Assembly (NCBI GenBank): GCA_013350285.1 | Contig: JAAXWG010000003.1 | Location: 1-64,000 of the forward strand | From: Candidatus Altimarinota bacterium | GTDB lineage: Bacteria; Patescibacteriota; Gracilibacteria; BD1-5; UBA6164 | Direction: 5' to 3' | Length of the DNA: 64,000 nt | Shown here: in pieces, positions 35,568 to 55,462 of the stretch | Position numbering within the stretch: the first letter of the stretch is position 1 | How the letters are laid out: every line of letters starts with the position of its first letter | Notes under the pieces: generated by a model | Database searches by the model: none | Told to the model about the DNA's origin: nothing | The model's input: only the letters and a program-made list of their open reading frames with translations | Made by a program: the position numbers and the translations under genes

Positions 35568-38500
35568 TTACCTTTTCAATTTTATTACTATTTTTCTTTC
35601 TTCTAGTTCAATATTTTTTTCAATATCTGGATTTTTGATATTTTCTACAAGACTTGAGAGAGTTTCAGCTTGAATATAATCTCAGAAATTTTTTATTACA
35701 TCTTCCAAATTTTCTCATTTGAGACAAAGTTGTATTCTATCACTTACTTCAAAACTTGCTTCTTTTCTCGCTTCTTGAATTTGTCTCACTATATCCCTTG
35801 CAATTCCTTCTTGAATAAGTTCAGGAGTGAGATTTTTATCAAGAGCAATAACCATACCAAATCAAGCTTCTATATCAAATGAAGAATCTCCTGCTTCAAA
35901 AGCAATTTCATACTCATCTTTTTCAAGTATAAAATTAGCTACCTTTACCTTTCCATCTTCAAGTTCTTCAAAGTTTCATGATTTTGCTTCATTCATGATA
36001 AATTTTACATCTTGTCCAAATTTTGGTCCTATGAGTCTCGCATTTGGTTTACAAATCTTTTTTGCTATTTTATCTGAATTATCAAGAATAATAAGCTCTT
36101 TTACATTGAGTTCATCTTTTATGATATCACAATAATAATCTTCTAATTTTTCTCAAATAGTTGCCGAAGAAAGAGCTTGTCTTACTCTCAAATTATTTCT
36201 TTGTCTCCAAGCAAGTCCGAGATTTACAAGTTGAGCAGTTTTATCAAATTGGGAATTTATATCTTCATTTATAAAAATATTTATACTTTTTGGAAAACTA
36301 TCAAGATGTACTGATTTTTTATTTGTCAGATTTCTATAAATATGTTCTGAAACAAAAGGCATAAATGGAGCAATAATTTTACAAAGAGTTACAAGAACTT
36401 CATAGAGAGTCTCATAAGCTTGAAGTTTATCATTATCATTTTCTGATTTCCAAAATCTTTTTCTACTTCTTCTGATATACCAATTTGTAAGATTATCCAT
36501 AAATTTTATGATTGGTCTTGTTGCTTCCGCAATTGTGTAATTATCCATCCCTTGTTCTACTTCTTTTATGAGACTATGAAGTTCTCAGATAATCCATTTA
36601 TCAAGAATATTTTCTCTTCCAAGAGTTGGAAGTTTTGTAATTTTTGTATTTTCAAGACTTGGCATTTCATAAAAAGCTTCATCTTGGCTCATATTATTAA
36701 GTTTTTTAAGTATTGGTCTAATACTTCATGCATGGGCAACTATAAGTATATTTTTTCACTTGTATTTTTCTTGAATTTCTTCAAATATTTCAAGTACTCT
36801 TTTTTCAAATTCTTCAACACTTTCTATCTTATTATTATTTTTATCTCTAAAAAATTTTCTAAATTCAGTATTATTTTTGAGATTAAATTCTTTTTTGAGT
36901 TCTTCTCTTCCTTTTCATTTAAGTACTCCACTATCTTGATCTCTTAGTCTCTTATCTTGTATTATTTCTCAAGTATATCCTATTTCTTCTGCTATTATTT
37001 TTGCTGTATCATAAGCTCTTGAAAGATGAGAAGAAATAATAATATCTATTTTTTCATTTTTGAGATTAAATAGTTTTCCTATTTCGTGAGCTTGTTTGAT
37101 TCATTTTTCATTGAGAGGAGTATCATTATCCCCCCCATTCATTATATCATTTTTATTATTATCAGTTTGTCCGTGGCGACAATAATAAATATTTCATTTT
37201 TCAGGACTCCATTTATCTATATTTGCATAAGTGGTGAAAAAACTATAAGTATTCCAAAGTGGAAGAATAATTTTTTTTACGACTTCTTCTACTCACGATT
37301 CACTAAATCTCAAATCTTGAGCTTCTACAACAGGAGAATTCATAAGATAAAATCTCATAGCATCAGCTCAATATTTGTTAAATATTATTTCTGGTTCAGG
37401 ATAATTATTGAGTCTCTTACTCATTTTTTTTCCATCTTCTGCAAGGACAATTCCATTGACAATACAATTTAAAAAAGGAGTATTATCAAAAAGTGCCGTT
37501 CCAAGAATAAGCAAAGTATAAAACCATCCTCTTGTTTGATCAAGTCCTTCAGCGATAAAATCAGCAGGGAATTTAAAACCTCATCCCCTCGCCCCTTCTC
37601 CTGAAAGAGAAGGGGAATTTAGTTCTTCTCCTTTAGGAGAGCTTAGGAGAGGATAATCAAAAGGATAATGTTTGCTTGCATAGGGCATAGATCCACTTTC
37701 AAACCAACAATCAAGAACTTCAGGAATTCTTTGGAGAGGAGCTCAGTTTTTTATGATTCATTCTATGACTTTACATTCTTTTACATTAAAATGTCCATAT
37801 CAATTTGTTTCAATAAGATTTGCATTTATTTTTTGAGCTAATTCTTTTCATTCTTTATCTCAAGCAACAGAGTCATCTTTTGATACTACAACAGTAATTT
37901 CTTTTACAAAATTTTTTATTTCCTCAAAATTGTGTTTCATTTCTGAATAAAATGAAATTATTTCTTTTCTTCCACTTCAGCTTATGCTAGGAGCAACAAG
38001 GATAAGTCTATCAAGCTTTATTTTGTGTTCAATAATATACTCCATAGCAACTCTTCCACCCATAGAATGAGCAATTATAGTGTTATATTTTTCTAATCAA
38101 ATTTCATCAAGTTTTTTCTCCCAGTTTTTGTAATTGATTTTTTCTCAAGACTCAAATTTTGGAGCATCAAAATTTATTCCTTCTTTTTCAAGATTTATCT
38201 TTGTTCATAAAATGAAATCTATTACATTTTCGCTTCTCAAAAATCCGTGAATTCCAAGCACATTTTTTACTTCAAGAGATTTTTCTTCTCATTTTATAAG
38301 TATTTCATCAACAAAATGTTTATGGAGGTCTACTTCTTTTCCAGTGTTTGAGTAAACATAATTTTTTGAAATCATTGAACGAGCATCTTCGATCCTATTT
38401 GAAGGATAAAAATCTTTATTTAATTCTCTTTTTATTTCAAATCAAAGTATATGAGAAAGCATATTGTAAATTGGGTCTCAATGACTTACAATTACAATTG

Positions 38501-40469
38501 TTTTTCCTCTATTTTTTTCAATTATATCTTTGTAGGCATGAATCATTCTTCCAGACATTTCTTCATAAGTTTCACCATTTCATCATATTTTTTCGTTTTT
38601 ATTTTCTCTAAAATATTTCCAATCAACATCCTTTCATTCTAAGTTTCATAAACTTACTTCTCTCAATCAATCCTCCGTTTTTATTTCAATATTTAATGTA
38701 TCTGAAAGAGGTCTTATTGTATCAAGACATCTACTTAATGGAGAGGAATAAATAATATCTATTGCTTCATTTTCGAGCAATTCTTTTATTTTTTCGGCTT
38801 GTCTTTTTCATAATTCACTTAATTGAGCCTTTCAAAGGCTATCTTGTAATCATTTTTCATTGTAATCAGTTCTTCCATGTCTTACCAAAATGACTTTTGT
38901 AATTTGTCCAAAATCTCTGTTTTTTTGATAAAGTTCCTCTATACTTCCAATACAAACTTCTTGTTTTTTATCTTTAGATTGCCATACAGGAATAGCTGAG
39001 CCCCAATATCTATTTCTTGAAATATTCCAATCACGAGCTCACTCAAGCCATTTTCCAAATCTTCCTTCTTTTATCAGTTCTGGCACCCAATGGATTTTTG
39101 CATTGTTTGCAAGCATTTTTTCTCTTATCTTTTCTACGGCAACATACCAAGCAGAAATTGCTCTATAAATAAGTGGAGTATCACATCTCCAGCAATGTGG
39201 ATAAGAGTGGTTTATCGTTGCAATATGCAAAGCAACTTTTCTTTCTTTGAGTTCGAGTAAAACGGATTCGTTAATATCACTAATAGAAAATCCATTTTTA
39301 TCAAGGAGATTATAAGTTTTTCCACTATCATCAATATGCATAAAAAATCCAAGATCTTCCTTTTCTCCGATAATATTATCATCTTCTCCGTATGCAGGAG
39401 CTATATGGACGATACCGGTTCCTGTTTCGGTTGTTACATGATGACCAATTACTACAGACCAAGTATTTTTTCCTAGATATATATTTGTACCTAAATCTTT
39501 TCACATATCATTGAATTGCACCTCAAAATCAGGGAAGACTGGTTCGTATTTTATCCCAACAAGACAAGCTCATTTATATTCTCTGAGGATTTTGTAAGAG
39601 TCGGTTTCTTCGCCTCCTTCTGAGACCGGTCTTTCTGAGTTAAGACCGGTCTCTTTTGATTTAAAATAATCTTTTACTTTTTCACGAGCAAGAATATAGG
39701 TATCTCCATTTGTTTTATCAAGTAGTTCTACATAAGTGATATCTTCTCCAACTGCAAGCCCAAGATTTGCATACAAAGTCCAAGGAGTGGTCGTCCAAGC
39801 AAGAATATATTTGTTTTCACTTCAAGCTACTTTAAATTTTACCGTAACGGTTTTACTTTGTTTATCTTTGTAGCCTTGATTTACTTCAAAGTTTGAAAGA
39901 GGAGTGCTACAACGAGGACAATATGGCACAACTCTATGCCCTTCATAAATAAGACCTTTATCATAAATAGTTTTATAAGTCCACCAAACAGATTCCATAA
40001 AATCAGTATCCATCGTTTTATAATCATTATCCATATCCACCCATCTTCCCATTCTTTCAACAGTTTTTCTCCATTCATCCACATATCAAAAAACATTTGC
40101 TCTACAAGTTTCATTGAAATTATAGACTCAAATATTATTTTCTATATCATCTTTTCCACTTATTTCAAGCTTTTTTTCCACGATATTTTCTATAGGAAGT
40201 CCATGACAATCCCATCCGAAGTTTCTTTCTACTTTTTTCCCTTTCATTGTCTGGTATCTTGGGATGACATCTTTTATTGTTCATCATACGAGATGACCAT
40301 AATGTGGAGTTCCAGTAGCAAAAGGAGGACCATCATAAAATTTGAATTCTTCGCAATCTTTTCTTGTTTCTATAGAAGCCTTGAAAATATCATTTTCTTT
40401 CCAGTATTTTAATACTTCTTCTTCTAATTTTGGAAAACTTTGTTTTTGGTTTACTTTTGGAAATGTCAT
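35568..40469 (-). CDS. ileS: isoleucyl-tRNA synthetase with three inserted domains
   Basis: 1633 residues, about 590 more than usual. Core landmarks in order: HYGH (the HIGH motif, ~56), CHGLPIE, WTTTPWT, the CP1 editing region, [69 protein letters not shown] (~1015), and an anticodon-binding region with [11 protein letters not shown]. Inserted are a histidine phosphatase (~519-700, RHG near 530), an RBBP9-like alpha/beta hydrolase (HSMGG, ~725-880), and a second histidine phosphatase (~1095-1260, RHGQTD). Two further inserts are palindromic DNA elements. The reading frame was followed without a stop through the insertions. Attaches Ile to tRNA-Ile. Confidence 0.93.
36690..37195 (-). other. 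histidine-phosphatase domain 2 inside ileS
   Basis: Sense reading gives [51 protein letters not shown] and LIVAHAGSIRPIL. These hold the RHG catalytic motif, the second catalytic His (VAHAGS) and the SRAYDTA segment of the histidine phosphatase superfamily. It lies between YANIDKW and LDKWIIGELHSL, words that abut in ordinary IleS. Confidence 0.88.
37578..37652 (-). repeat. in-frame palindromic element in ileS, catalytic side
   Basis: Two imperfect hairpins (CCCCTTCTC-ctgaaa-GAGAAGGGG and CTCCT-ttagg type) encode about 25 residues, [21 protein letters not shown], between the HYPFDYP and FKFPADFI words that frame the catalytic core. GC-richer than its surroundings. Confidence 0.7.
37850..38270 (-). 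other. RBBP9-like alpha/beta hydrolase domain inside ileS
   Basis: Sense reading: [26 protein letters not shown] (nucleophile elbow G/H-x-S-x-G), [16 protein letters not shown] (Asp region) and [10 protein letters not shown] (His). Ser, Asp and His of the triad are all in place. It is inserted between [10 protein letters not shown] and [10 protein letters not shown]. Confidence 0.85.
38395..38915 (-). other. histidine-phosphatase domain 1 inside ileS
   Basis: Sense reading: [64 protein letters not shown]. The RHG and SHG catalytic histidines and the GxE region are present. It is inserted between GSIEELYQ and [12 protein letters not shown]. Confidence 0.88.
39610..39658 (-). repeat. in-frame AGACCGGTCT element in the ileS editing region
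   Basis: Two copies of AGACCGGTCT flank a short loop (GAGACCGGTCTTTCTGAGTTAAGACCGGTCTC), encoding about 17 residues ([16 protein letters not shown]) in the CP1 editing domain. The same decamer occurs in the Cys-rich genes at 1,400, 15,620 and 15,700. Confidence 0.75.
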
Positions 40470-46047: not shown

Positions 46048-46683
46048 TTATAATTTTTTTATTTCTTCCAATATTTCATCAATTTCACTAATATCTGGTA
46101 TTTCATAAATATCAATTTGTTCGTTTCCTATATGGATAAATGTAATATTTTGAGACATAGCAATTTCTCTATCTCTTTGTCCATCTCCAACATAAATAGC
46201 ATGTCTACAAAAATTTTCATCTAAACTTTTTTCTTTAAATAAATCTATATGTTCTTTTCATTTCAATACATTTTCACTTCAAATTATTTCTTCAAAAAGA
46301 TTTTCAATTCCTACTTTTTTCAATTCTTCTTTTGCAAATCTTGTAGAATTTGCTGTAGTGATAAAAAGTTTATAATTATTGCTCAATTCTTTTAATTTTT
46401 CAATAGTTCAAGGAAAAAATTTTACTTCTCCCAAGGCTTGAGTTTGGAGGTTTTCATATATTCTATTTTTGAGATTTTGAAAATCTATATTTTGATTATG
46501 GTCAAAAATTATTTCAAGTTGTTTTAAAAGAGGCATTCAAGAAGTGGTGCTCAATATATATTTAGCTGTATTTATTTTTTTTTCATCTACTTCTCCTATA
46601 ATTTTTACTATTTTATCTCTATTTCTTTCTATAGAGTTTATGAGAGTTCCATCAAGATCAAAGATTATATATTTTTTCCCCAT
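46048..46683 (-). CDS. HAD-superfamily hydrolase
   Basis: 211 residues. Motif I IIFDLDGTLINS, motif II FITTANS, motif III Lys in the WKGKE region, and motif IV VGDGQRDREIA. These are HAD phosphatase motifs with a cap of about 80 residues (subfamily IA type, like phosphoglycolate phosphatases). Substrate unknown. It starts 11 bases after the RidA stop and ends 15 bases before the promoter of the structured leader. Confidence 0.85.
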
Positions 46684-46693
46684 TTTTCTTTTT

Positions 46694-47137
46694 TTATTTA
46701 AGATTTAAAATATCATGGCTTGCAATTACTTCTATTTCAATAGAGGCTCATTTTGGAAGATTACTTACTTCTACTGTGCTTCTTGCGGGTTTTAATATAA
46801 AATAATCTTTGTATACTTCGTTTACTATATCAAAATCATTTATATTTTTCAAGAAAATAGTTGTTTTTATGACATCTTTTAATCATAAATCTACTTCTTG
46901 GAGAAGAGCTTTTATATTTCTACATACTTGAATTGCTTCTTCTTTTATCCCTCATTTTTCTAATTCGTTAGTATATGGATTTATCCCTATTTGTCAACTA
47001 AAGAAGTAAAGATTTCCTGTTTTTTTATATTTTGAATAAGGTCCTACTGGTTCAGGTGTTCCATGAGAATTATTTATTTCTGAAGATTTGATATTTTTTC
47101 CATTCGTATTTTGACGAGTTGTAAAAATGATAACCAT
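46694..47137 (-). CDS. ridA: RidA-family enamine/imine deaminase
   Basis: 147 residues. [64 protein letters not shown]: complete RidA (YjgF/UK114) pattern with the Arg and Glu of the active site. RidA detoxifies 2-aminoacrylate-type products of PLP dehydratases. IlvA lies two genes upstream, which makes a product-detoxification link plausible. Confidence 0.9.
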
Positions 47138-47159: not shown

Positions 47160-48290
47160 TTATTTTGAAGCTATTATATTTATCCATCTATCTTTATTTT
47201 GTTTTGTATCTCAGTTTATTATTATATCCCTTATTATTAATCATTGTTTTTCAAAAAAATATTTTAATTCATTTTCAGTATAATATGTATAAGTGTTTTT
47301 TATTCAAGGAATAGATATACTTTCTTTTTTTATTTTTTCTGGGTTTCATTCTTCTCTCAGCTTTGTAGAAAAACAGATACTTCCTCAAACTTTTAGAAGA
47401 TAAATCATTTTCTCTAATAATTTTTCTCACATCTCTTTTTCCATATGAACAATTGTCGCAAGAGTCCAAATTCAATCAAAAGATTCTTTTTGAAAATATT
47501 TTTGACTTTCAAATGCATTTCCAATAAAAATACAATCTTTTACTTCTGGATAAGCAATTTCTTTCATTTTTTCACTTAAGTCTATTCCTACTACATCATA
47601 TCCTTTTTCTTTGAAATATTTTATATCTCTCCCATATCCACAACCAATATCAAGAATTTTTCCATAAGGAATATACTGGCAAAAAAGAGAATATAAATTT
47701 TTTACTTCTTCTTTGAGTTCAGTTTGTTTTTTAAATGTAAGAGCATGAAGACTATAAGTATCTTTGATGTTTTTAAAAGTTGTCTCATAGAGTTCTATTT
47801 TTTCAATGATTTTTCAAGCATTTTCATCTCTTGTATTTTCTTGAGTTGTTTTTACTTCTATATCAAATATACTTTCATAAATTGCTTTTCTTTTTGCATA
47901 TATTTCATCAAGATTATGTCCATTATATCAAACAATTCTTCCAACTTGCATATCTTTTTTTCTTCAATTTATTACAGATACATCAGTATTAAGATAAATA
48001 ATAATAGCATTTTTATTTATATTTTCCATAATATCAGTTTGAAGGGCAAGGCTTCCACTTGGAGCAAAAACAGTATTATCAAGAATTATATCTTGATAAT
48101 CAAGTCTTTCCATAGTAATAAATTTCTCATCTCAAAGTTCTTCTAAAAGACTACTCACAGTTTTTTTATGTTTTTCTTCAAGATAATCATCAAAATCAAT
48201 AAAGTTTTTTCATAATTTTTCAGCAATTACTTTTCCGAGAGTTGATTTTCATGCTCATGACATACCAATGAGAACAATATTTTCTTTCAT
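47160..48290 (-). CDS. shikimate-kinase-like domain fused to SAM methyltransferase
   Basis: 376 residues, one frame. Residues 1-~170: P-loop GMSGAGKST (two UGA glycines), FIDFDDYLEE, GDEKFITMERLDYQDII, PSGSLAL and RKKDMQVGRIVG, an AroK-like order. Residues ~185-376: ILDIGCGYGRDIKYF (motif I), VVGIDLSEKMK, and FDGIWTLATIVHME of class I methyltransferases. The substrate and the relation of the two activities are unknown. It is 4 bases after ilvA and 22 bases before ridA in one apparent operon. Confidence 0.83.
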
Positions 48291-48293
48291 AGT

Positions 48294-49535
48294 TTATATA
48301 AGTAAGTCAAAATAAATTTCATTATTTGTTATATCCTCATACTTAAATCAAAGTTCTTTCATTTTATTTTCTATTGTTTCAAAATTTTCTTTTTTTTCTG
48401 TTTCTATTCAGATAAGTACTGGAGCTCTTTCTTTGTTTGATTTTTTCATATATTCAAATCTTGCAATATCATCATCTGTTCCAAGACATCACAAAAATTC
48501 TTTTAAGGCTCATGGTCTTTGTGGAAAACTGATAATAAAATATCTCTTTTTTCATTCAAATTTCATACTTCTCTCTTTTACTTCTGGAAGTCTCTCAAAA
48601 TCAAAATTTCCCCCACTGACAATAACAACAACTTTTTTTCCCTTGATTATTTCTTTCAAATCTTTAAGAGCATCACTTGCAAGAGCTCAAGCAGGTTCTA
48701 TGACAATTCCATCCTCTCTTAAATATTCCAAAATTGTAGAACAAACTCTATTTTCATGACTTGTAAGTACTTCTAAATTATAGGCTTTGCATATTTCATA
48801 TCCTTTATCACCAACTCTTTTTACACTTGCTCCATCTACAAAAATATCTATTTTTTCAAGAATTGTATTTTCTCACAAAGAAAGAGAATTTTTCATAGAA
48901 GCAGCTCCAAATGGTTCAACTCCAATTATTTTTGTATTTTTTCCTAAAGCTTTAGTTATTTCTATGATACCAGAAACAAGTCATCCTCAACCAATAGGGC
49001 AAATAATATAATCAATATTTTCTTTTTGAAATTTTTCATAGATTTCAAGTCAAATAGTTGCTTGTCAATTGATAATTCTTTCATCATCAAAAGGGTGAAC
49101 AAATATTGCATTTCTTTCTTTTTCATATTTTCTTGCTTCTTTAGATGCTTCATCAAAAGTATCTCAAATGAGAAATATTTCTACATACTCTCATCAAAAT
49201 TGTTTTGTTTTGTACACTTTTTGTTCGGGAGTTGTAAGAGGCATAAATATGGCTCATTTTATCTTGAGTTCTTTACAAGTTATAGCAACTCATTGAGCAT
49301 GATTTCAAGCACTTGCGCATACGATTCAAGCTTTTTTTTCTTCTTCTGAAAGAGAGTTTATAAGATTGAAGGCTCCTCTTATTTTATAACTTCTCACAGT
49401 ATTAAGATCTTCTCTTTTGAGATAAATTTCTGCTTCGTATTTTTTACTGAGTCTTTCTGATTTTTCAAGTGGAGTTGTCGGAATAAAGTCTCAAAAATTT
49501 TTCTTTGCTTGTATTATGTCTTCTAATTGTATCAT
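48294..49535 (-). CDS. ilvA: threonine dehydratase, catabolic/biosynthetic type
   Basis: 413 residues. PLP Lys in LKREDLNTVRSYKIRGA, SAGNHAQGVA, PIGGGGLVSG, and a C-terminal ACT-like regulatory segment (RYFIISFPQRPGALKEFL). Makes 2-oxobutanoate from threonine; the enamine intermediate is a RidA substrate. Other Ile-biosynthesis genes are not visible in the window. It precedes the kinase-methyltransferase gene by 4 bases. Confidence 0.92.
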
Positions 49536-49551
49536 AATGAAATAATAAGGG

Positions 49552-51288
49552 TTAAAATTTCTCAAGAATATCTTTTATATTACTATATTTTTCACTAAAA
49601 AATCTATTTCCATTTATCGTATTTTTTATGAGAAAATTATTAAAATAAGGAGAATTTTTTTCCCATAAATTTGGAATTTTTTTTAGTCATTTTTCATAAT
49701 AGATTATTGCTTCTTTTTTGTATCATCTTTTTTCAAGCATATTTCAACAAAAAAAATAATCTTCAGCACTTGTATAAAAAGTGAGATATTCTTTACAATT
49801 TTCTTCAATATTTCTCAAATTCAAAATCTTTTTTTTAAAATAAAGAGGGCTTTTTATTTTTTCTATTTCTTTTCCTTTATTAAAAAGATTTATTTCGTAA
49901 AAGTAATTTGGGTGAGGAAAGAAAAAAATAGCTTTTTTGTACTGATTTTGTAAAAAAAAATACTCAGAGATAAAAAAACGAGAAACAATAAAAATGCTAA
50001 AAATCGAATAAAAAATGATAAAAATTTTTGATACAAAGCTGAATATATATTTTGTTTTTTTCTTTCTACTTTCTTTTATAAAAGTTCTCCATCAAAATAT
50101 TCAAATACTTTTCCAGATTGTTAATTTTTTATATATTTTTTTGAATCATCATTTTTCTAGGGAAATGAAGCTCATAAAAAAAATAAAAAGAAGATAAGAA
50201 ACAATGCTTGGAAAATTGAAAAAATAAAAAAAGAAAAAAAGAAGAAGACTTTCAAAGTAGGGATTTCTCTCAAAATGTTTTATAAGAAATCAAAAAACAA
50301 GGCTTATAAGTAAAAATCCTCAAATTCAAAAGTTATAAAAAAAATCAAGAAAAATATTATGGCTTCTATCTGCTTGATATCAAAAGTTTTCAAATATGTA
50401 GAGAAAAGGAGATTTAAAGTTTCAAAATATAAAATTTAGTGTTTCATTTCATCATCAGAGGAAGAATATTTTAGGAGATGAAAATATTATTTTTATGACA
50501 CTTTCCCAAATAAAAAATCTTGAAAGAAGAGAATGGATTTTTGATGGAAAAAATATGATAGAAAAAATAAAGAGAATAATTAAAAATATCATTCAAAAAC
50601 CAAATACTTTTTTGTTTTTTTCATAAAAGAAAAGAAAAAAAATATAAAATAAAAAAGCAAAAATAGCAATAAAACTTTTTGTAAGAAAAAGGCAAAAAAT
50701 AAGAGGAATAAAAATGAAAGTATAATAATATTTTTTTTCTTTTAAAATCTTATCAAAGAAAAAAGGGGAAAGAAGAAGTATATAAGAAGCAAGATAATGA
50801 GGACTTCAAAAGCTTCCAATAGCTCTTCCAATATAGCTATCATAATAAAATGAAGGGGAAAAGAATTCTTTTATTCCCCATAAAGCAGGGAATATAGAAG
50901 AAATAAGTATAAAGTTGAGAATATTTTTTTTTGATTTTATATCAAGTGAAACAAAAATATTATATAAAATTATAAGATTGAGAAACAAAAAAAATGAGTG
51001 TCATTTTTCAATACTTCAAAAAAATGAATGAAAAGGGGAAAGAGAAAAAATACTTGAAATAAGTAAAATTACAATAAAAAATAGCGAAAAAATATTTATT
51101 TTTTTCTTTTCGTTTTTTATGTTTAGTAAGATGATAAATGAAGAAAAAACAATAAAAAATACAGATTTTGTGAATTCAAAATTTCAATATATATCTATAT
51201 TCAAAATTTTTGAATGGATGAGTGGAAGAATAAAAAAAAGAAAATATATAAAAAATTTTTTTATATTTTTTGCTAGATATATTTGCAT
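49552..51288 (-). CDS. O-antigen ligase-like multi-helix membrane protein
   Basis: 578 residues, very hydrophobic and Phe-rich. About ten helices with a large extracellular loop (AIGSFGSPHYLASYILLLSPFFF), the usual WaaL/Wzy O-antigen ligase or polymerase pattern, and a C-terminal soluble tail of about 130 residues with TPR-like NYFYEINLFNKG. Its start overlaps the Nudix stop by 16 bases. In a monoderm-like cell it would act on surface polysaccharide rather than O-antigen. Confidence 0.78.
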
Positions 51289-53665: not shown

Positions 53666-55462
53666 CTATGAAATATTACCTCATAGCATAATAATTTCTT
53701 TTCGTATATTTTCTTGAGCTTGTTTTTCATACTTTTCTATAAAATAAGGTGTTTTAAAAATTCTTCCTCCAGATTTTCATTCTAAAAATGCTAATCTTCA
53801 TTTTTTATAATCTTCTTCTTTATAATTTGAATATTCATTTCTTACGGCTCTCATATAACCATATTTGATTGAATCTATACCTCCATGGTATATATCCCAA
53901 GGTTGTCATAATATAGATAAATCTATATCTATCATATAAGCTCCTATTAAATCATTTCAATCTAATTTATGACTAGCAGTAAGTGATATAAGATAACTAG
54001 CTCTTTCAATTATTTTTTCTTCTAATCATAATTTTTTTAAAAAATCTTTTGCAAAGTTAGCACTTTGTCTTTCATTTTCTCATGCTTTTGCTTTTGAAGA
54101 ATATATAGCATCATGAAATAATATAGCAAAAAACAAAGCAATAAATTCCTCATGAGAAATAGACTTTTTTATTTCATAAAGAATATTTAGGCAAGCTATA
54201 ATATGAAACCAATTATGATATAATCTCTCAGAAGTATCATACATAGGTTTTAACTTAGCATATATATCAATCCATTTATCTTCAATTCATAATTTCGTAA
54301 ATACTGATTTCATTCTCAATTCACCATATATATCAACAGTACATAGCATTTGATTAAATTTCTCTTCTATTATTAAATCATCATTATTTCAATTATTGTC
54401 AAAATCTACTAAATTTCCATATCATGTAGTCTTAATACTAGCAGAAATAACTTCTTTTTTTCTATCAGTAGAAAACTGATTTTTAACTCTTCTTTCTATT
54501 TGTTCATTATCAAGATTTCTCCCTGATAATCTTTCCTTTTGCACTTCATTATCAACTCATATTAAAACTATATTATTGTTTGCTAAGTCTGTTATTCCAG
54601 CTTCTGCTAATAATGCTCAGTTCAATAGTATAATACCTTTTTTTCAATATATTTCTGTTCTAATTCTAACTTGCATAGGATTAAACATAATTTCATCTAA
54701 AAGTTTTCTTTTTTTAGAATCATTAAATACTATTTCTCCAAGTTTTTTTCTATCTATAAAACCTCATTCTGTTCCTATAGAATCTCAAAATTTTTTAATA
54801 AGCTTCTGCCTTATTTGTTTATATCAATCCTCAATTGCTACTTCTAAAATCCGATGTCATATTTTATCTAAATCTATATTGTGCACTGGAATATTTTCTT
54901 GTTTTCATAGCTCCAAAAATTTTTCTGTTATATATGATTTTCAAGCTCATATAGTTCATGTAAGTCAAACTATATATTGTCAATTCATCCTCGCTTCTAA
55001 AAAATGCTTTACATTTAAACTTACATAATCTTGTATAAATCATTGTTCTTTTAATAATGATTTCGTTACACTACTACTTACATGTGTTTGATTTTGTTCA
55101 GCAAATAAATACATTGAAACTATTCATTCTTTTTCTAAAATATTTTTTAGTGTTTCTTCTCATTGAAAATCACCAATTCATCTAATCCCTCTAATTACTG
55201 TTTTGCTTCATTGTTCAAAAGTAAAATCAGAAAGGAGTCATCAAAAAGGTTTGACATCTATATTCATTCATTCATATACTCTTGCCTTAGTTGCTCATTT
55301 TATCATTTCTACTCTTTCAGGAAAGGAAAACATATATTTTTTATCTGGATTTTGACCTACGGCGACGACAACCTGCTCAAATCTTTCTCAAGATTTAATC
55401 AACATATCTTGATGTCAATTTGTAAATGGATCAAATGATCACGGATAAATTACTTTTACCAT
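53666..55462 (-). CDS. coaDE: CoaD-CoaE-HD fusion protein
   Basis: 598 residues, one open frame. Residues 1-~155: phosphopantetheine adenylyltransferase (YPGSFDPFTNGH, FSFPERVEMI, IRGIRGIGDF, VSSSVTKSLL). Residues ~165-370: dephospho-CoA kinase (GLTGTIGAGKS P-loop with three UGA glycines, VHNIDLDKIGHRI, VFNDSKKRKLLDEI). Residues ~395-598: HD-type metal-dependent hydrolase resembling COG4339 (RLYHNWFHI, LFHDAIY, NERQSANFAKDFL). The first two catalyse the last steps of CoA synthesis; the third role is unknown. Its gene is divergent from the AbrB-type gene. Confidence 0.9.

Follow-up and report, generated by a model that had tools for sequence, protein, structure and literature searches.

A kinase–methyltransferase fusion in a gracilibacterial genome and the probable role of its shikimate-kinase-fold half as a homoserine kinase

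The window analyzed here is a stretch of 64,000 nucleotides (positions 1 to 64,000 of contig JAAXWG010000003.1) from the genome of a Candidatus Altimarinota bacterium, which comprises 1,281,964 bases on 8 contigs and is 98.06% complete. When read with NCBI translation table 25, positions 47160-48290 of its minus strand form one open frame, 376 codons long, that encodes a kinase joined to a methyltransferase. Fourteen in-frame TGA codons are read as glycine under this code, two of them in the P-loop (Gly12 and Gly14), and the other two frames of the interval contain 30 and 12 stops. Table 11 was rejected, as it does not leave the frame open. Table 4 was also tried; it opens the same frame but places tryptophan in the P-loop, where code 25 yields GMSGAGKS, and the choice of code 25 over code 4 thus rests on such glycines. 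Code 25 points to Gracilibacteria or SR1. Scans of the window for tRNA genes and Rfam families gave 0 matches.

The kinase domain (residues 1-170, 47781-48290, minus strand) was recognized by Pfam SKI (PF01202; 86.8 bits, E = 2.2e-24, residues 12-165, above the curated cut-off) and by a structure model as having the shikimate-kinase fold, with NF040667 as its best NCBIfam model; its P-loop, GMSGAGKS, occupies residues 9-16 (48243-48266). The methyltransferase domain (residues 173-376, 47163-47774, minus strand) matched Methyltransf_25 (PF13649; 52.8 bits, E = 6.7e-14, residues 212-303, cut-off 27) in the same frame as well as other methyltransferase models. Residues 211-222 of this domain, KILDIGCGYGRD (47625-47660), are what we take to be SAM motif I, a region conserved in an alignment of seven rows. 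The kinase–methyltransferase fusion reported in the earlier note is therefore real, with both Pfam matches above their cut-offs in one frame of 376 residues, and it joins two known kinds of domain in a protein seen in one genome. A second such fusion was not found among 77 genomes of the order, and no published description of one was found in the literature searched. A phylum-wide search of 379 genomes (query A1) gave 23 genomes with a match at 1e-20, mostly canonical kinases, and one genome, G512, was added; no further fusion was recognized from open-frame lengths in the part of the loci that was read.

The fused gene is the second in a directon of four genes on one strand, in the order ilvA, fusion, ridA and a HAD hydrolase gene, with gaps of 3, 22 and 10 nt. 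The ilvA gene (48294-49565, minus strand) encodes a threonine ammonia-lyase, starts at TTG 49565 or ATG 49532, and matched NF006390 with 586.5 bits (cut-off 421). The ridA gene (46694-47137, minus strand) encodes a member of the enamine/imine deaminase family and matched TIGR00004 with 137.2 bits (cut-off 106.25); both neighbors had been named from the sequence, and the two models bear those names out. The directon ends with the HAD_2 hydrolase gene (46048-46683, minus strand; PF13419, 82.3 bits), and upstream, beyond ilvA, lie genes for a Wzy_C-type membrane protein and a NUDIX protein. In relatives, the region around the NUDIX–Wzy pair is variable in content, and ridA, solo kinase, solo methyltransferase, HAD, MazG-like and inosine-triphosphatase-like genes occur near the pair in differing mixtures, the gene names in these neighborhoods being assigned by eye unless scanned. 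IlvD had no match in the source genome, though IlvA is present, and IlvA may thus not serve isoleucine synthesis here.

The kinase half differs from shikimate kinases in two characteristic motifs. In an alignment with the solved shikimate kinase 4y0a, Ile58 (48117-48119) stands opposite the arginine of the FR motif, which binds the carboxylate in shikimate kinases, and SGS (residues 78-80, 48051-48059) stands opposite GGG, so that the shikimate-binding residues, whose inspection had been proposed from the sequence, are not fully conserved. A motif table showed the same division: Arg58 was absent and Ser present at position 80 in all 16 rows of the SGS type, and all 19 canonical kinases carried Arg58 together with GGG. 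Among 16 named rows from a contig scan (at least 80 loci, with the kinase ORF recovered in 71 and 16 loci used in the tree), GGS was found in 15 and Arg58 was retained in 5; loss of Arg58 therefore does not define the branch. In H. pylori shikimate kinase, the R57A and R57K variants are reported to have 2% activity and no shikimate binding, and the corresponding arginine is described as bonded to two glutamates, E53 and E60 (PMC3306394). In the SGS type, Glu61, D32, D34, R118 and R134 are invariant across the 16 rows.

In the tree of 51 rows, a branch with support 100/93 separates the 19 canonical kinases from the SGS and GGS kinases; a single wrongly cut row, L017, was used neither in the tree nor in the motif counts. 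The SGS rows form one group (99/92), in which the kinase of the window is the first branch as drawn with a midpoint root, and the exact place of the canonical AroK of the source genome is unsure owing to its long branch. In an AlphaFold2 prediction from 38 rows, most blocks of 10 residues in the kinase had pLDDT above 90 and the methyltransferase half was poor. The kinase model compared with 4y0a gave Z = 21.1 and an rmsd of 2.0 over 168 residues, a comparison that really assessed residues 1-173 only and that identifies the shikimate-kinase fold. The AroK-like domain named from the sequence is thus supported by both the SKI match and the fold. A shared fold shows no function, and the kinase resembles AroK/AroL in fold and P-loop but differs from them in Ile58, SGS and its separate branch. 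Judging from these features, the fused kinase probably has a small-molecule substrate different from shikimate.

This last conclusion agrees with the earlier note, which had also proposed a non-shikimate substrate, in so far as Arg58 and GGG are replaced and the protein lies outside the AroK branch; the reason given there, the absence of the aromatic pathway from a bacterium in which aromatic amino acid synthesis was not expected, did not hold. A second, canonical shikimate kinase with FRKIE and GGG is encoded on contig C1 of the source genome, adjoining a gene that is weakly prephenate-dehydrogenase-like (25.8 bits), and chorismate synthase (AroC, 378.3 bits) adjoins EPSP synthase (AroA, 297.8 bits) on contig C8. 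The search for aromatic genes covered AroK, AroA and AroC, and all three enzymes were found. Aromatic synthesis is likely present in this genome, and the fused extra kinase therefore needs another explanation. Shikimate kinases also occur in other composite proteins of the class: by eye, an EPSP-synthase-like part is fused to shikimate kinase in L018:280-1995 and L229:253-2013, and a PurN-like part in L027:1432-2613.

The best-supported substrate, as far as sequence comparison can tell, is homoserine. The homoserine kinase model NF040667 scored highest on the fused kinase (103.1 bits, against 73.6 for the best shikimate kinase model) and also ranked first for each of the 7 other SGS kinases that were scanned; the order was reversed in the AroK of the source genome (71.2 bits, against 85.2 for the shikimate kinase model). 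Two GGS kinases scanned with the same model scored 193.1 and 176.5 bits. The score of 103.1 bits lies below the cut-off of 197, which leaves the fused kinase outside formal membership of NF040667. A protein of the shikimate-kinase fold from Desulfovibrio, DvMF_0971, is reported to complement a thrB strain of E. coli for growth (PMC5764234); to judge by the name of the model, NF040667 was built around it. The kinase of the window resembles the DvMF_0971 type in belonging to the shikimate-kinase family outside the AroK branch and in having NF040667 as best model, but it reaches 103.1 of 197 bits, is fused to a methyltransferase, and carries SGS where the high-scoring relatives carry GGS.

Gene order and pathway content point in the same direction. 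G025 encodes a fusion of an SGS kinase with threonine synthase; as in the window, the kinase is the N-terminal part, but its partner is not a methyltransferase. The SGS kinase gene overlaps that of threonine synthase in G001 and G007 and is one gene apart from it in G218, and a ThrC-like gene (by eye) comes after a GGS kinase in G512. The source genome encodes Asd next to an aspartokinase (the latter by eye), two homoserine dehydrogenases and a divergent ThrC-like protein of 792 residues, for which 5 of 5 PDB matches are threonine synthases; this protein scored 82.4 bits with TIGR00260, below the cut-off of 167.1, and had no Pfam match at 1e-5. No match was found in the source genome to the GHMP-type ThrB (TIGR00191) or to thrB_alt, these two models making up the search for homoserine kinases. 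A further model, TIGR02535, represents another proposed substitute for homoserine kinase. ThrB was also not among the Pfam and NCBIfam families shown for the fused protein, and a search for literature on threonine and shikimate in Gracilibacteria found none. The most likely explanation is that the kinase is a homoserine kinase that fills the gap in the threonine pathway of this genome, to which we assign a probability of about 0.6; the sole threonine-related gene adjoining the fusion is ilvA, and IlvD has no match in the genome, both points against this explanation. A diverged P-loop kinase-like ORF that overlaps a threonine synthase ORF in G170 (L067:2801-3454) is perhaps a further type of homoserine kinase.

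The methyltransferase half has solo relatives in six genomes (G156, G213, G170, G014, G198 and G135), which align over the whole domain with 32-42% identity; the motif DIGCGYGRD is conserved across the resulting seven rows. These proteins, from the same family and order, are not joined to a kinase as the domain in the window is. When the full protein was searched against the order at 1e-8, 25 of 77 genomes matched. Both halves matched in the source genome; in 14 genomes the match was confined to the kinase half, canonical kinases among them, and in 10 to the methyltransferase half. The proposal that the kinase product is then methylated found no support here, as this search gave no kinase match in any of the 10 genomes with the methyltransferase. 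The solo methyltransferase of G213 adjoins a HAD protein that is 40% identical to that of the window. The top PDB profile match (profile A2) was phosphoethanolamine N-methyltransferase (E = 3.2e-17), among matches that are generic and that include uncharacterized methyltransferases near the top. Scans of viral contigs gave distant generic methyltransferases at 9 loci, 5 of which supplied extra rows for the fold prediction, and other P-loop proteins at 4 loci. A P-loop kinase, a methyltransferase and a HAD phosphatase also occur together in Pnkp/Hen1-like RNA repair; such a system was considered for this locus and rejected, given the shikimate-kinase fold, the homoserine-kinase-like branch and the lack of a Hen1 model among the methyltransferase families shown.

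In the mechanism that we favor, the kinase half would serve as the homoserine kinase of the cell, one of the shikimate-kinase-fold type and not of the GHMP ThrB type. With ATP as the donor, it would phosphorylate L-homoserine at its side-chain hydroxyl, and the resulting O-phosphohomoserine would be used by threonine synthase; the threonine could then be deaminated by IlvA, with enamine by-products cleared by RidA. Loss of Arg58 would remove part of the clamp that holds the carboxylate of shikimate, presumably freeing Glu61 to hold the alpha-ammonium group as Arg134 keeps the carboxylate, and such a pocket would suit an amino acid, possibly a hydroxy amino acid. The methyltransferase half is predicted to be a separate small-molecule methyltransferase, encoded by a stand-alone gene in relatives and probably independent of the kinase in activity. 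The two may have been joined in this lineage when the stop and start between two genes were lost.

The distribution of the kinase is wider than that of the threonine pathway. Homoserine dehydrogenase and threonine synthase were surveyed in 23 genomes, 14 of them with an SGS kinase (source genome included). Among these 14, homoserine dehydrogenase was found in 4 and a threonine-synthase match in 6, the source genome being counted in both, and 8 had neither (G210, G102, G024, G203, G149, G204, G085 and G182). The completeness of G203 is 79% and that of the other seven at least 92%. In G210, the single weak TIGR00260 match is its IlvA, and IlvD is also present. Conversely, no SGS kinase was found in G193 despite a homoserine dehydrogenase and a ThrC-like protein. 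G001 and G218 encode the kinase and threonine synthase with no match to homoserine dehydrogenase. Salvage of external homoserine is reported for a parasite that has retained homoserine kinase and threonine synthase only (PMC4460637); by analogy, salvage could explain G001 and G218, but not the eight genomes without threonine synthase. The kinase gene adjoins ridA in G149, G203 and G204, as in the window, and among the matches listed RidA lies directly upstream of the kinase in 10 of 71 GGS loci (L136, L122, L108, L124, L159, L119, L172, L117, L164 and L171), with gaps of -34 to 28 nt. These ten loci belong to genomes of the Lachnospiraceae type, in which the two genes often overlap; as the genomes are related, the ten may represent one event. 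GGS kinases have other frequent neighbors, again among the matches listed and by eye: in 10 loci a MurA-like gene lies downstream, and in 8 a pyruvate-kinase-like gene lies upstream. One GGS-type kinase from a Lachnospiraceae genome, L106:4977-6365, has a C-terminal extension of nearly 300 residues.

It is because of the kinases without threonine genes in 8 of 14 genomes, and of the pairing with RidA, that homoserine is given no more than the above probability. The same observations fit a kinase that acts with RidA as a partner on another hydroxy-amino acid or a similar compound, such as free serine or threonine, in the salvage or detoxification of amino-acid intermediates, the copies linked to threonine synthase being one specialized branch. 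The gene directly upstream of the source kinase encodes IlvA, whose substrates are threonine and serine, which would also suit such a role. Against this, the source genome encodes the enzymes that flank the homoserine kinase step, for which no other candidate was found, RidA fits threonine metabolism as well, and the GGS loci may count as one event; we regard this alternative as possible but unlikely. A broader version is similarly doubtful: the SGS/GGS branch might be a widespread kinase of amino-acid alcohols working with RidA, of which part serves threonine and part another substrate in small genomes without homoserine dehydrogenase and threonine synthase, and which has here been fused with a methyltransferase from the same island of metabolite-handling genes. 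In relatives, this island contains ridA, HAD, NUDIX, MazG-like and inosine-triphosphatase-like genes.

The remaining alternatives are much less probable. As both domains are in one protein and the methyltransferase is closest by profile to phosphoethanolamine N-methyltransferase, the kinase product might be methylated by the joined domain, for example from ethanolamine through phosphoethanolamine to its methylated forms. However, the solo kinase and solo methyltransferase co-occur in 0 of the 25 matching genomes, uncharacterized methyltransferases follow closely in a generic set of PDB matches, and the kinase branch is linked with ThrC and RidA, which makes consecutive action very unlikely. 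An assembly or consensus error that joined two adjacent genes would account for a fusion seen in one genome when both domains are solo in relatives. This too is improbable, because both halves share one frame and are similar in GC and TGA use, and because residues 120-241 contain no in-frame ATG, GTG or TTG. The sole such codon within residues 120-250 is ATG242, inside the methyltransferase, which leaves this half without a usual start of its own, so that a lost stop alone would produce a methyltransferase gene with no usual start. Least credible is that the protein is simply a second shikimate kinase carrying a side domain: the SKI match and the fold are as expected for one, but Arg58 and GGG are lost, the protein falls outside the AroK branch, and a canonical AroK is encoded elsewhere in the genome.

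Kinases of this type can readily receive a shikimate kinase annotation, and if the homoserine kinase reading is correct, such a label conceals a gene of the threonine pathway and gives a false impression of redundant aromatic synthesis. For 29 of 148 organisms able to grow without amino acids, the authors of GapMind report homoserine kinase as a low-confidence step (PMC7311316), and a readable motif by which the two kinds of kinase can be told apart would thus be useful. The part most worth following is the occurrence of the same kinase type in genomes without the threonine pathway, paired repeatedly with RidA; the RidA–kinase pair and the kinases without threonine synthase make it testable what else this branch phosphorylates.

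Other multidomain proteins are encoded elsewhere in the window. The isoleucyl-tRNA synthetase (35568-40469, minus strand) has 1633 residues, and two histidine-phosphatase domains (two stretches matching PF00300) and a serine-hydrolase-like domain (PF06821) interrupt its catalytic part; a relative in L085 has 1107 residues. At 53666-55462 (minus strand), CoaD-like and CoaE domains are combined in one protein of 598 residues, with a tail that is HD-like by eye.
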